Shown: piece by piece, positions 1,441 through 8,209 of the stretch
Layout: each line of letters begins with the position of its first letter
Numbering within the stretch: the first letter of the stretch is position 1
DNA from: Anaerolineales bacterium
GTDB taxonomy: Bacteria; Chloroflexota; Anaerolineae; Anaerolineales; E44-bin32
Assembly (NCBI GenBank): GCA_004376895.1
Contig: SOIH01000185.1
Coordinates: forward strand, 1-35,923
DNA: 35,923 nt
Direction: 5' to 3'
The notes under the pieces: generated by a model
Seen by the model: the letters and a program-made list of their open reading frames with translations, nothing else
Told to the model about the DNA's origin: nothing
Database searches by the model: none
Position numbers and translations under genes: made by a program

Positions 1441-2466
1441 ATGCTGAAACGTCTGGACGAACTTGAACGGGAGGCACTTAAGAATCTGGAGGAAGCGTTG
1501 GATGAACACACGCTTCAAGCCTGGAAGGTAAGCTACCTGGGACGTGCGGCCGAACTGGGAAAGATCACCGAGAGTCTGCGGGAGCTGTCGAAAGAGGAAC
1601 GTCCTGCTGTTGGGCGGCGCGCGAATGAGGTCAAGAAGGCGTTAGAAGCCGCCTATGAAGGGCGCGAAACGTCCATGCAGCAAGCCGCGGTAGAAAGAAG
1701 TTTGAGGGAAGAACGACTGGATGTCACCTTGCCCGGCCGCAGCATGTCGCGCGGCAGGATCCACCCTGCCAACCAGATGCTTCGCCGCATCTATGCGATC
1801 TTCGCCGAGATGGGCTTCCAAATCTACCGTTCACGCGAGGTGGAGACGGATGAATATAACTTTGGTCTCTTGAACATGCCCCCCTTTCACCCTGCCCGGG
1901 ACCTCTGGGACACCTTTTACACCACCGGAGAGGGCGTGCTCTTACGAACGCACACTTCTCCAGGGCAGATACTCGTGATGCGCGAGCGTGCTCCAGAGCC
2001 GATACGCGTAATCCTGCCGGGGATGTGCTATCGCTATGAGCAGATCTCGGCTCGGTCGGAGATCCAATTCAATCAAGTCGAAGGGTTGGCGATCGGAAAG
2101 AATATCACCTTTACCGACCTGAAAGGAACGCTAGTCGCCTTTGCTCGCCGTCTATATGGAGATGAGGTACGCACGCGCTTTCGAGCGGCCCACTTCCCCT
2201 TTACAGAGCCCTCAGCCGAGATGGATATCGAGTGTTTCGTCTGTGACGGTGAGGGATGTGGGGTATGTAAGAAGACCGGGTGGCTGGAGGTCCTGGGTTG
2301 CGGCATGGTCCACCCTACCGTGCTGGCCAACGGGGGCTACGATCCTGAGATCGTCTCCGGCTTTGCTTTCGGCATGGGACCTGAACGCATCGCCATGAAT
2401 ATTCACCGTATTGACGACATCCGCAACTTCTGGGCGAATGATCTGAGATTCTTACAGCAATTCTGA
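1441..2466 (+). CDS. pheS: Phenylalanyl-tRNA synthetase alpha subunit
   Basis: 341 aa; class II aaRS motifs (e.g. HPARDLWDTFYT..., GGYDPEIVSGFAFGMGPERIAM); SD AAAAGGAG. Confidence 0.97.
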   Translation: MLKRLDELEREALKNLEEALDEHTLQAWKVSYLGRAAELGKITESLRELSKEERPAVGRRANEVKKALEAAYEGRETSMQQAAVERSLREERLDVTLPGRSMSRGRIHPANQMLRRIYAIFAEMGFQIYRSREVETDEYNFGLLNMPPFHPARDLWDTFYTTGEGVLLRTHTSPGQILVMRERAPEPIRVILPGMCYRYEQISARSEIQFNQVEGLAIGKNITFTDLKGTLVAFARRLYGDEVRTRFRAAHFPFTEPSAEMDIECFVCDGEGCGVCKKTGWLEVLGCGMVHPTVLANGGYDPEIVSGFAFGMGPERIAMNIHRIDDIRNFWANDLRFLQQF

Positions 2467-2506
2467 GCCCCAATCGGGCTTTAAATAGGATGACAAGGGA
2501 GGCTTC

Positions 2507-5065
2507 ATGAAAGTTCCCATAACTTGGCTGCGCGAGTTTGTCGATATTGAACTTCCAATTCCCGAGCTAGCCCACAGGCTGACTCTGGCCGGACTGGAGG
2601 TGGAGGAGATCCGCTTTGTTGGACTTCCACAACCAGAGGAAAAGATAGAGGGCCATACCGGTCGCAAGCGAAGCATCGGAACGAACGTAACAGGACTAGC
2701 ATGGGACCCCGAAAAATTCGTCGTCGGGGCGGTGTTAGAAGTCATGCCTCATCCGGACGCAGATCGCCTGGTGCTGTGCCGTTTGGATGATGGTGAACAG
2801 GAACACACCGTGCTCACCGGCGCGCCCAATCTTTTCCCCTATAAAGGGCAAGGAACCCTGAAGAACCCTTTGAAGGTAGCCTACGCACGCGAAGGAGCCA
2901 CACTTTTCGATGGCCATATCTCTGGTTGGGAAACCTTCACGCTCAAGCGGGCGAAGATCCGCGGGGTAGAGTCTTATTCGATGGCCTGTTCGGAAAAAGA
3001 ACTCGGTATCTCTGAGGAACATGAGGGCATTATCATCCTCGACGAGGACGCGCCGGTTGGGCAGCCACTCGTGGAGTACATGGGTGATGCGGTCCTAGAT
3101 ATCACGCTCACGCCCAATGTATCCCGCAATGCCAACATCCTGGGGGTGGCACGGGAGGTAGCTGCGCTGACAGGGGCGGCGCTGAATGAGCCCTCCTACG
3201 AAGTCCCATGGAAGGGTCCTTCGATCGATGGGCGGGTGAGCATCGATATCCGCAATCCCGAACTGAACCCGCGCTTCGTACTGGGACTTGTTGAGGGGGT
3301 AGATGTTGGACCCAGCCCATACTGGGTGCAGCTCCGCCTGCAATTAGCAGGGATGCGGCCGATCAATAATATCGTTGATGCCACGAACTACGTCATGCTT
3401 GAAATTGGCGAACCTCTGCACGCGTTTGACTTCGATGTCCTCGTCGAACGCGCCGGTGGAAACGCGCCGGAGATCATCACCCGGCTTCCGGAATCGAAGG
3501 AGCGCATAACCACACTCGACGGCGTCGAGCGGTCACTGGACGATTTCACGGTCTTAGTGACCGATAGCGCCGGGGCGCTTTCGATCGCCGGCGTGATGGG
3601 GGGCGCCGAGTCAGAGGTTAGTGAGAAGACCACCCGCGTTTTGCTTGAGGGGGCTTCCTGGAATTTCATCAACATCCGCCGGACGGCAGGGTCGCAGAAC
3701 CTACAATCCGAAGCCTCCTACCGTTTCGAGCGCGGAGTTCCCCCGGCGATGGCGGAACGGGGGGTCAAGCGCAGCCTGTCCCGGATCCAACAATTTGCCG
3801 GTGGCGAAATCGCCCAGGGGCTTGTTGACGAATATCCATTGCCGCCAGAGCCGTCGATTGTAGAGATTTCCCCAGTTGATGTGGAGCGCTCGCTCGGGAT
3901 CCGACTTGAGATCGATGCTATCGAGGAAATACTCGGTCGGCTCGGTTTTGAGATCGAGAACAAAGGGGAAAAGCTGCATGTGACAACGCCAGATCATCGC
4001 ATGGATATCGGTGAGGGCATCGTAGGTGTTGCAGACTTGATGGAAGAAGTGGCACGGATCTATGGTTACGACCGTCTGCCGGAGACAATGATCTCTGATG
4101 AGATCCCGCCTCAGTACAGCAATACAGCCCTGGAGCGTGAGGAGCAAATCCGAAACCTGCTCGCTGGTCTTGATTTACAGGAGATCGTAACCTATCGCCT
4201 AACAGCCCCAGACCATGAAGCTAGAATCTTGCCCACCGGGATGAAACCCGACGATAGACCGTATATCCAATTAGAGAATCCAATCAGCGTCGACCGTATG
4301 GTCATGCGCCACAGCTTATTAGCAAGCGTACTGGAAATCGTGGAAAGCAACGCCCGTTTCCAGGAGCGCATCGCCGTGTTCGAAATTGGACCGGTTTATT
4401 TGTCTGCTGAAGAGGGTGAACTCCCGGTCGAATCGCTCAAACTCGCCATAGCGCTAACCGGACCGCGCGCGCTTCCTTCCTGGCGGGAACCATCATCAAA
4501 GGAATTCGACTTTTTCGATTTAAAGGGCATTCTCGAGGCGTTGTTCGAAGGTCTTAAGGTCGGGATAGTGGAGTATTCCCCGGGGGAACACCCATCATTT
4601 CATCCCGGAAAATGCGCGCGGATATTGGTCGATGGAAAGCAAGCGGGTGTTATGGGAGAGCTTCACCCTCTAGTGAAGGAGCGCTACAATTTTCAGTCCT
4701 TTCCTCTTCTTGCTGCAGAATTGGATGTAGAAATGGTCATCCATGCGATCCCTGAATCGATTGACGTGGAATTGGTCAAGGCCTTCCCGCCCGTATTGGA
4801 AGATCTCGCGATCGTCGTCGATGAGGCAATCCCAGCGGAACGAGTCCTTGGCGTCATCCGGAAAGCGGGAGGGGATCTGCTGGAGGACATCCGCCTCTTC
4901 GATCTCTACCGGGGCGAACAAATCGAGGCGGATAAGAAGAGTCTGGCATATGCCCTGACGTATCAGGCTCTGGATCGAACATTGACAGATGAAGAAGTGG
5001 CAGGGCTGCGGAAGAAAATCGTTAAGGCGTTAGAGAAAGAACTCGGCGCCTACCTGCGATCTTAG
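2507..5065 (+). CDS. pheT: Phenylalanyl-tRNA synthetase beta subunit
   Basis: 852 aa; MKVPITWLREFVDIELP start, CSEKELGI, B5 and C-terminal FDX-ACB region; follows pheS. Confidence 0.97.
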   Translation: MKVPITWLREFVDIELPIPELAHRLTLAGLEVEEIRFVGLPQPEEKIEGHTGRKRSIGTNVTGLAWDPEKFVVGAVLEVMPHPDADRLVLCRLDDGEQEHTVLTGAPNLFPYKGQGTLKNPLKVAYAREGATLFDGHISGWETFTLKRAKIRGVESYSMACSEKELGISEEHEGIIILDEDAPVGQPLVEYMGDAVLDITLTPNVSRNANILGVAREVAALTGAALNEPSYEVPWKGPSIDGRVSIDIRNPELNPRFVLGLVEGVDVGPSPYWVQLRLQLAGMRPINNIVDATNYVMLEIGEPLHAFDFDVLVERAGGNAPEIITRLPESKERITTLDGVERSLDDFTVLVTDSAGALSIAGVMGGAESEVSEKTTRVLLEGASWNFINIRRTAGSQNLQSEASYRFERGVPPAMAERGVKRSLSRIQQFAGGEIAQGLVDEYPLPPEPSIVEISPVDVERSLGIRLEIDAIEEILGRLGFEIENKGEKLHVTTPDHRMDIGEGIVGVADLMEEVARIYGYDRLPETMISDEIPPQYSNTALEREEQIRNLLAGLDLQEIVTYRLTAPDHEARILPTGMKPDDRPYIQLENPISVDRMVMRHSLLASVLEIVESNARFQERIAVFEIGPVYLSAEEGELPVESLKLAIALTGPRALPSWREPSSKEFDFFDLKGILEALFEGLKVGIVEYSPGEHPSFHPGKCARILVDGKQAGVMGELHPLVKERYNFQSFPLLAAELDVEMVIHAIPESIDVELVKAFPPVLEDLAIVVDEAIPAERVLGVIRKAGGDLLEDIRLFDLYRGEQIEADKKSLAYALTYQALDRTLTDEEVAGLRKKIVKALEKELGAYLRS

Positions 5066-5931: not shown

Positions 5932-6357
5932 ATGAATATATATTTCTCATGCTCTCTCACAGGAGGGAGGCAGGACGAATCAGTCTACATGACGATTGTG
6001 GGTCATCTATTGGAGATTGGACATGACGTGCCCACCGCGCACCTCGCTCATCCGCAGGTGATGGATTTGGAGCGCGTTGTAGACGCCGGAGAAGTCTATG
6101 AGCGGGACATGGCCTGGATCGAAGCCTGTGATGCGGTTATTGCTGAGGTGAGTACGCCATCACACGGAGTGGGGTATGAGATCGCTGTAGCGCTCAAGCG
6201 GGGAAAACCGGTGCTGTGCTGTTACCGTGACGGTGTGACTGTGTCGAAGATGATCACAGGAAACGACTCGAAAAGGCTGACGCTATGCACCTATCAAGGG
6301 ACTGAAGACGCGCTGACGGCGATTGATGATTTTCTGCAAGCGCTGCCTGGCGCATGA
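5932..6357 (+). CDS. Nucleoside 2-deoxyribosyltransferase family protein, DNPH1/Rcl-like 2'-deoxynucleoside 5'-phosphate N-hydrolase
   Basis: MNIYFSCSLTGGRQDESVYMTIV...AEVSTPSHGVGYEIAVAL... resembles the YFxxSIRGGR / AEVTQPSLGVGYE motifs of DNPH1; start refined from ORF 5899. Confidence 0.75.
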   Translation: MNIYFSCSLTGGRQDESVYMTIVGHLLEIGHDVPTAHLAHPQVMDLERVVDAGEVYERDMAWIEACDAVIAEVSTPSHGVGYEIAVALKRGKPVLCCYRDGVTVSKMITGNDSKRLTLCTYQGTEDALTAIDDFLQALPGA

Positions 6358-6779: not shown

Positions 6780-7250
6780 TCAAAGCGCCTTGGTGGCGAC
6801 ACCATCCCTCAGTAATCTAACCACATGTGCATGCGTATTTTGCAGTCGCTGCGCGATCACATCTGCTAAACGTTCAAGGATGACCACGCCCGCATCAGGA
6901 TGTTTCTCGCATAACATGGTGAGGTCCTCGCCCTTAATGCTCAAGACCAGACTTGGTTTAATGCTTACAGCACAGGACGTGTAACTCTTGCGCCCGAGTG
7001 CCGCGGACCAGCCGAAAACACCCCCTTCTTCGATCTCGGTCACAGGTATCACGTCCCCATCATGAGGCTTAAAGCGGATAGCCACCTTGCCCGAGATCAA
7101 GAAGTATAACCTCTCGGCGCGGGCATCCTGCTCGAAGATCACATCACCTTCTCCAAAGGTTTCTGAGTCAAATCTTTTTGCCAGGAGATTGAGGTGTTTT
7201 GTGTCGAGCCCCTTAAATAGAGGTAGCGAATTGAACGTATCCCGGTTCAT
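6780..7250 (-). CDS. Cyclic nucleotide-binding domain protein (no recognisable HTH)
   Basis: 156 aa; LPLFKGLDTKHLNLLAKRF...GEGDVIFEQDARAERLYFLISGKVAI... cNMP-binding fold; C-terminus too short for a Crp HTH. Confidence 0.85.
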   Translation of the reverse strand: MNRDTFNSLPLFKGLDTKHLNLLAKRFDSETFGEGDVIFEQDARAERLYFLISGKVAIRFKPHDGDVIPVTEIEEGGVFGWSAALGRKSYTSCAVSIKPSLVLSIKGEDLTMLCEKHPDAGVVILERLADVIAQRLQNTHAHVVRLLRDGVATKAL

Positions 7251-7388
7251 AGCCTTAGTTCAGCAGGTGGCGACTTCAGTGTAGTTTGGCTGTTAATGGG
7301 CTTCGAAGTGGATTCTTTCCCGATCTGTACGACAACCGTCACATCCTTCGGATTATGGGTCCTATTGCACAGCCTCAAGAAAAATACC

Positions 7389-7417
7389 TTGACGCAACAT
7401 CTAATTGTAGGTATATT
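7389..7417 (+). promoter_or_regulatory. Putative promoter TTGACG-N17-TATATT
   Basis: TTGACG 7389-7394, exact 17-nt spacer, TATATT 7412-7417; the expected start falls at the base of the hairpin beginning at 7421. Confidence 0.5.
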
Positions 7418-7420
7418 ATC

Positions 7421-7475
7421 AAACACAGGCAGGCATCTGGGTGCCCCCCTCACCTAGATGTTTGTCTGTGTTTTT
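7421..7475 (+). ncRNA. Candidate minimal hairpin RNA (23-bp stem plus U-tract) with its own promoter
   Basis: AAACACAGGCAGGCAUCUGGGUG / CACCUAGAUGUUUGUCUGUGUUU pair in all 23 positions (19 WC, 4 G-U); loop CCCCCCU; followed by T run. No + strand gene is nearby upstream. Confidence 0.4.
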
Positions 7476-7597
7476 AACTAGGATTTTCAGCTTTAATTCT
7501 ATTGAGAAGAATGTGAGAAAGCCGCTAAGTTGTGCCGGGGAAGCTACCTGTTATAGGTCGCTCTTCCCTGCTGAGCGGACCCTCGTGATTTCGGGAT

Positions 7598-8209
7598 TTA
7601 CGAAGAGCGGGTGATCCGGGCGTCTCGTTTAAGGAGCTGTTCCGCTCGTTCTAAGTCTTCCGCTGTGTTTACATTGAAGAAACTCAAACCGGAAGGATCA
7701 AGCTCGGAGAGTTCGGGCTCTTCGATGGGGAGGACATGTACTTTCGGAAAGAAACTAACCATTCGTTGTTCGCCGGATTCCAGCACCGCTTCCACCGCGG
7801 GAAGGCAGCGCACCCTGTTATAAACTGATTGGAGCGGTTCGTACTTGTCCCCATGTTTGGGGACGATCATATCGGCCTCATGCGCTCGGTTGAGAAGGTG
7901 CTCGAGCAATTCACGACTCACGAAAGGTGTATCGCAAGACAAAACCAGGACGACCTCACCCTGCGCAGCTCTAAGAGCGGTTTTGAGACCGTGCAAGGCG
8001 CCAGTGCCGGGGACCTCGTCGGGCGCCATCCGCAGATTGAGATGGGTCAGAGTCTCCGGGCGATTGGTTGTTATCAGGATTTCGTCCGCCAGACCATCGA
8101 CTCGACCGAGCACTCGCTCGATGAGTGGAGTCCCCGCCAGACGGATCAGAGCCTTATCTTCCCCCATACGGCTGGATTTCCCGCCCGCTTGAATAGCAAT
8201 GGTGATCAT
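7598..8209 (-). CDS. mobA: Molybdenum cofactor guanylyltransferase
   Basis: 203 aa; AIQAGGKSSRMGEDKALIRLAG...PGTGALHGLKTAL...LSCDTPF... MobA motifs. Confidence 0.88.
   Translation of the reverse strand: MITIAIQAGGKSSRMGEDKALIRLAGTPLIERVLGRVDGLADEILITTNRPETLTHLNLRMAPDEVPGTGALHGLKTALRAAQGEVVLVLSCDTPFVSRELLEHLLNRAHEADMIVPKHGDKYEPLQSVYNRVRCLPAVEAVLESGEQRMVSFFPKVHVLPIEEPELSELDPSGLSFFNVNTAEDLERAEQLLKRDARITRSS

Follow-up and report, generated by a model that had tools for sequence, protein, structure and literature searches.

The window, that is the whole 35,923-nucleotide stretch of DNA that was analysed, carries at positions 7389-7475 of the + strand the hexamer TTGACG (-35 element, 7389-7394), a spacer of 17 nucleotides, the hexamer TATATT (-10 element, 7412-7417) and, following these, a hairpin. 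An earlier note, made from the letters alone, had read this arrangement as a promoter of the form TTGACG-N17-TATATT driving a fully paired hairpin with four G-U wobbles, and both elements were found as described. The promoter scan returned TTGACG/TATATT at 7389-7417 with 10 of 12 matching positions, the -35 element also being conserved in the genus, and the 5′ arm of 23 nucleotides (7421-7443) pairs at 23 of 23 positions, four of them G-U, with the 3′ arm (7451-7473) around the loop CCCCCCU (7444-7450). The T5 tail (7471-7475) forms part of the short U tract and end UUUUUAA (7471-7477), which is a probable site of intrinsic termination. As + strand RNA, the hairpin reaches a folding energy of -35.2 kcal/mol (z = -7.8), which 0 of 200 shuffled sequences matched, whereas the minus strand of the region folds at only -22.4 kcal/mol. 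In the window scan the hairpin was called terminator-like.

Upstream of the hairpin, the nearest genes lie on the minus strand, namely a gene for a cNMP-binding-domain (Crp-like) protein (6780-7250) and, before it, a NifU-domain gene. The downstream neighbour, mobA (7598-8209), is likewise encoded on the minus strand. The last + strand gene upstream of the hairpin ends at 6357, which is in accordance with the earlier claim that no upstream + strand gene needs a terminator at this place.

A conserved block on the minus strand upstream of the Crp-like gene (7250-7361) reads as a short ORF of about 28 amino acids (...VQIGKESTSKPIN...), the stop of which seems to overlap the ATG of the Crp-like gene. 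Since the few changes in this ORF within the genus include a synonymous one, its sequence suggests a small coupled protein or a leader peptide. Further towards the start of the window, a T-box leader (RF00230, 99.4 bits) is located at 1100-1375, upstream of what read as the pheS and pheT genes (1441-5065).

Distribution and genomic context

In four of the five other genomes of the genus, the 87-bp stretch has matches of 94-95% identity. Within the genus, hardly any change is seen between the -35 element and the tail, and conservation drops 3′ of the latter, while across the family and the order the match narrows to the hairpin alone. The core pattern GGTGCCCCCCTCAYC was present in 150 of 250 Anaerolineales genomes, compared to 2 matches for the reversed control pattern. 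Carrier genomes in the order contain one to six copies, some of which are arranged in tandem, about 145-210 bp apart and each with its own promoter. A search with a longer pattern against 85,462 species yielded 83 contigs, all labelled Chloroflexota, Anaerolineales or their genera. The RNA gene extends over at least eight Anaerolineales families, with the stem checked in each, and its carriers include two isolates, Leptolinea tardivitalis and Levilinea saccharolytica. Outside the order, the 15-base core gave sporadic matches, and the 16-bp stem was seen in 0 of the 20 that were read. A viral collection scanned with the hairpin pattern gave no match. The hairpin, together with the promoter in close relatives, recurs across the Anaerolineales (Chloroflexota) far beyond chance. 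Sludge, sediments and the subsurface often harbour members of this order in abundance.

The genes flanking the hairpin vary by lineage and comprise the Crp-like and mobA genes, a class-V aminotransferase, a SpoU methylase and an E1 dehydrogenase. The position between the gene for the cNMP-binding protein and mobA is shared by several genera of the source family. For the 117 copies with both neighbours called, the flanking orientations were +/- (38), +/+ (36), -/- (22) and -/+ (21).

A class-V aminotransferase gene (cysteine-desulfurase-like) is found beside the hairpin at 20 loci and in both orientations (among them L006-L008, L016, L017, L040, L043, L045, L073, L080, L082, L094, L112, L113 and L116).

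Stem, loop and promoter across homologous copies

Among 29 homologues, 19 of the 23 pairs had changed on both sides, compared to a shuffle mean of 10.6, and 88% of the cells were paired, compared to 33-48% in the slid controls. As compensatory changes thus exceed both types of control, a structured noncoding RNA gene is well supported by the alignment. In a set of 119 distinct copies, 112-119 were paired at each of positions 1-16 and 59 at position 17, with 100 copies being fully paired. From this sharp drop the family stem is taken to be 16 bp (7428-7443 and 7451-7466 in the window), and the 23 bp of the window, judged from the same comparison, are a lineage-specific lengthening. Whereas the outer stem positions carry several pair types, the apex hardly varies: the loop reads CCCCCCU in nearly all copies, rare variants having seven C or U for C, and of the closing pairs GGUG/CAYC, pairs 1, 2 and 4 are constant in 119 of 119 copies and pair 3 is nearly so. 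The 119 copies contain 237 G-U cells as opposed to 5 A-C cells, an imbalance which supports the + strand as the functional RNA.

A pair of -35 and -10 elements scoring at least 9 of 12 precedes the hairpin in 80 of the 119 copies, compared to about 4.5 when the upstream sequence is shuffled. In 76 of the 119 copies the -10 element ends 18-19 nt 5′ of GGTG, the corresponding distance in the lineage of the window being 21-22 nt. With the usual spacing of 6-8 nt after the -10 element, this near-fixed position of a sigma-70-type hexamer predicts that transcription should begin roughly where the 16-bp stem does, the first base of this stem being a purine in 110 of the 119 copies. The tail is TTTAA, with three to five T in most copies. 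Termination at this U tract is plausible, not certain, because the tract is so short. In the window, the predicted start falls at 7423-7425, so that the A-U pairs at the foot of the 23-pair stem (7421-7423) probably lie upstream of it and are not transcribed. The RNA from this locus would then likely have about 20-21 pairs.

These comparisons bear on most of what the earlier note had proposed. The orphan promoter driving a + strand hairpin RNA gains support from the 119 copies, and the strand specificity agrees both with the G-U bias and with the poorer fold of the minus strand. The stem is conserved with compensatory changes in relatives, its 16 core pairs being kept. The 23-bp uninterrupted hairpin RNA was correct with regard to the pairing in the DNA, but probably has to be shortened as an RNA, given the family stem and the predicted start. 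Taken together, RNA structure, strand, invariant apex, promoter position and independence from neighbouring genes are supported at the level of sequence comparison.

Alternative explanations and possible mode of action

Several explanations that do not require a free-standing RNA were weighed. The strong stem, the U tract and the terminator-like call would suit an intrinsic terminator or a transcription insulator between genes, lacking any function as RNA. However, no + strand gene ends immediately upstream in the window, the upstream gene lies on the opposite strand in 43 of the 117 copies with both neighbours called, a promoter sits directly 5′ of the hairpin, and an invariant loop and apex are not needed for terminating, all of which makes this explanation very unlikely. 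A cis-acting leader controlling the downstream gene is suggested by copies that are located 50-120 bp 5′ of a + strand gene (SpoU-type methylase, E1 dehydrogenase or class-V aminotransferase). Against such a leader, which we regard as improbable, stand the 60 of the 117 copies with an oppositely oriented downstream gene (mobA in the window included), the change of the downstream neighbour from lineage to lineage and the drop in conservation 3′ of the tail. In general, the mixed orientations and varying neighbours argue against a terminator of a fixed gene as well as against a conserved leader.

The palindromic sequence, the presence of up to six copies per genome and their occasional tandem arrangement are also reminiscent of a REP/MITE-like mobile or repeat element. 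Many near-identical genomic copies, given by the earlier note as the sign of such an element, were looked for, and the 87-bp stretch occurs only once in its own 2.95-Mb assembly. Furthermore, the site between the gene for the cNMP-binding protein and mobA is fixed in several genera of the family, the stems diverge with covariation while the promoters are kept, the G-U pairs are biased to one strand, the viral collection contained no match, and near-identical copies with target-site duplications were not seen. This makes a mobile or repeat element the most improbable of the explanations considered, to the point that it can almost be dismissed. Since flanking genes and orientations vary, the copies have diverged and no viral match exists, the hairpin does not appear to be a REP/MITE, a leader or the terminator of another gene.

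The reading that we favour, with a probability of roughly 0.55, is that of a free-standing gene for a trans-acting hairpin RNA of ~45-55 nt which pairs with G-tracts without Hfq. Transcription, the exact ends of the RNA, its action in trans and the pairing with G-tracts are what we infer in this model. A SigA-type RNA polymerase would start at the foot of the stem, or a few bases off, and would stop at the short U tract just 3′ of it; the single hairpin would then constitute the entire RNA, including its own terminator and its C6 recognition loop. The 16-bp stem (about 20 bp in the window) would serve as a rigid, nuclease-resistant handle that is free in sequence provided that pairing is kept, and would display the apex GGUG-CCCCCCU-CACC. 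With a stem that varies in sequence yet stays paired, and with a frozen apex, it is the apex that would represent the working part of the molecule. Most likely it would pair in trans with G-tracts in a small set of RNAs, thereby lowering translation or stability of these targets in the manner of the mycobacterial 6C/B11 RNA. Since a search for Hfq in 26 relatives found none, such an action would have to be Hfq-independent.

Searches for targets with G-tracts identified none, conserved or otherwise. At start codons, AGGGGG, GGGGGG and related words were represented 0.6-1.2-fold, compared to 7.7-7.9-fold for AAGGAG (800 kb of genome G046 and other loci), and in six genomes of the genus AGGGGGG-N(3-13)-ATG did not exceed its reversed control in frequency. 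Due to this lack of enrichment, sequestration of Shine-Dalgarno sequences as a genome-wide rule was rejected for the sequences covered. Those AGGGGGG-ATG sites kept in the genus that were checked lie within coding sequence, and with regard to avoidance on the sense strand of coding regions, AGGGGGG did not differ from sister words. The G-tracts kept between two related genomes, which were not retained as targets, comprised only coding matches and, in a single genus, one leader. This leader, located 5′ of a gene without assigned function, has a CCCCCC/GGGGGG hairpin of its own.

The leader hairpin, CACCCCCC-GATACTAGCA-GGGGGGTG, is kept at a distance of about 40 nt 5′ of that gene (G046:C1 near 1484799; G058:C1 near 144), and its GGGGGG arm is, by sequence, a possible pairing partner of the C6 loop. 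The same Anaerolineales genome, G046, shows on contig 1 (L146-L185) a 12-13-fold enrichment of TATAAT-like hexamers at 5-10 nt 5′ of ATG, which suggests that many of its mRNAs may be leaderless.

Alternatively, the apex GGUG-CCCCCCU-CACC might be bound by an RNA-binding protein; rather than pairing with mRNAs, the RNA would then sequester or deliver this protein, or be stored together with it. The constancy of closing pairs 1, 2 and 4 in all 119 copies, although any pair would hold the loop open, keeps a protein partner in consideration. GGUG/CAYC is as constant as the loop, while simple loop pairing needs no such constancy. Also consistent with a protein partner are the G-tracts without enrichment at start codons, the uniform stem length of 16 bp and the failure to find Hfq in the 26 relatives. 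Conversely, the neighbouring genes are not constant, and hence no co-encoded protein is apparent, and a loop of C only is a well-known RNA-pairing device. We consider protein binding possible but clearly the less probable reading, and give the same tentative standing to the broader proposal of an order-wide RNA of ~50 nt, the constant apex and C6U loop of which would be recognised either by a single dedicated partner RNA or by an RNA-binding protein. If true, bacteria without detected Hfq would here possess a minimal regulatory or ribonucleoprotein system that had not been described before. Pairing in trans is thus ranked first and protein binding second, both as proposals.

Comparison with known RNAs

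A covariance-model search against Rfam 15, performed at gathering cut-offs and then at E-values up to 10, assigned the hairpin to no family at the gathering cut-offs, and the same search with 12 homologous loci yielded none either. Only ftsZ-DE and mir-210 appeared below threshold, mir-210 being a chance match. The closest model, ftsZ-DE (RF02985), shares a hairpin of 15 pairs with the pyrimidine loop CUCCCU, preceded by AACACA; it was rejected with a match of 23 bits where the gathering score is 72.2, and its second hairpin is absent from the Anaerolineales element. In 151 Chloroflexota genomes no ftsZ-DE match above cut-off was found, the weak matches being terminator-like. Our literature search, which was limited for small-RNA work on Anaerolineales and found none, revealed no description of this hairpin RNA, a published collection of 224 candidate RNAs lying outside the comparison.

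With intrinsic terminators, the element has in common a GC-containing stem followed by U's, but it differs from them by its own promoter at a near-fixed distance, its invariant loop and apex and the lack of a gene to terminate. The LhrC-type sRNAs of Listeria are multicopy and partly tandem, and bind Shine-Dalgarno regions through C-rich single-stranded motifs. While copy number, partial tandem arrangement and C-richness are similar, LhrC is longer and has several motifs, whereas the Anaerolineales RNA has one hairpin and the G-tracts are not biased to Shine-Dalgarno positions.

Similarity is also seen to 6C/B11, a small RNA whose hairpin loops, that of the terminator hairpin among them, carry tracts of about six C or more, and the Anaerolineales hairpin likewise has a loop with about six or more cytosines. 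In B11, the C-rich loop of the terminator hairpin pairs with G-tracts in 5′ UTRs and represses the targets (PMC12395582; PMC10470900), and the work on M. tuberculosis speaks in its title of independence from RNA chaperones. However, B11 consists of three stem-loops, including two C-loop hairpins, as opposed to one hairpin here, and belongs to a different phylum (Actinobacteria, mycobacteria); moreover, the Anaerolineales hairpin has no covariance-model match and its closing pairs are constant. A stem that is paired but changes freely, combined with a frozen C6 loop, would point to a conserved regulatory or RNA-protein system in organisms with no Hfq detected, and the simplicity of one hairpin with a start predicted at the stem base, together with cultured carriers, should make structure-function tests easy. 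Small RNAs with a C-rich loop are a known kind, whereas this family and its single-hairpin design appear to be new.
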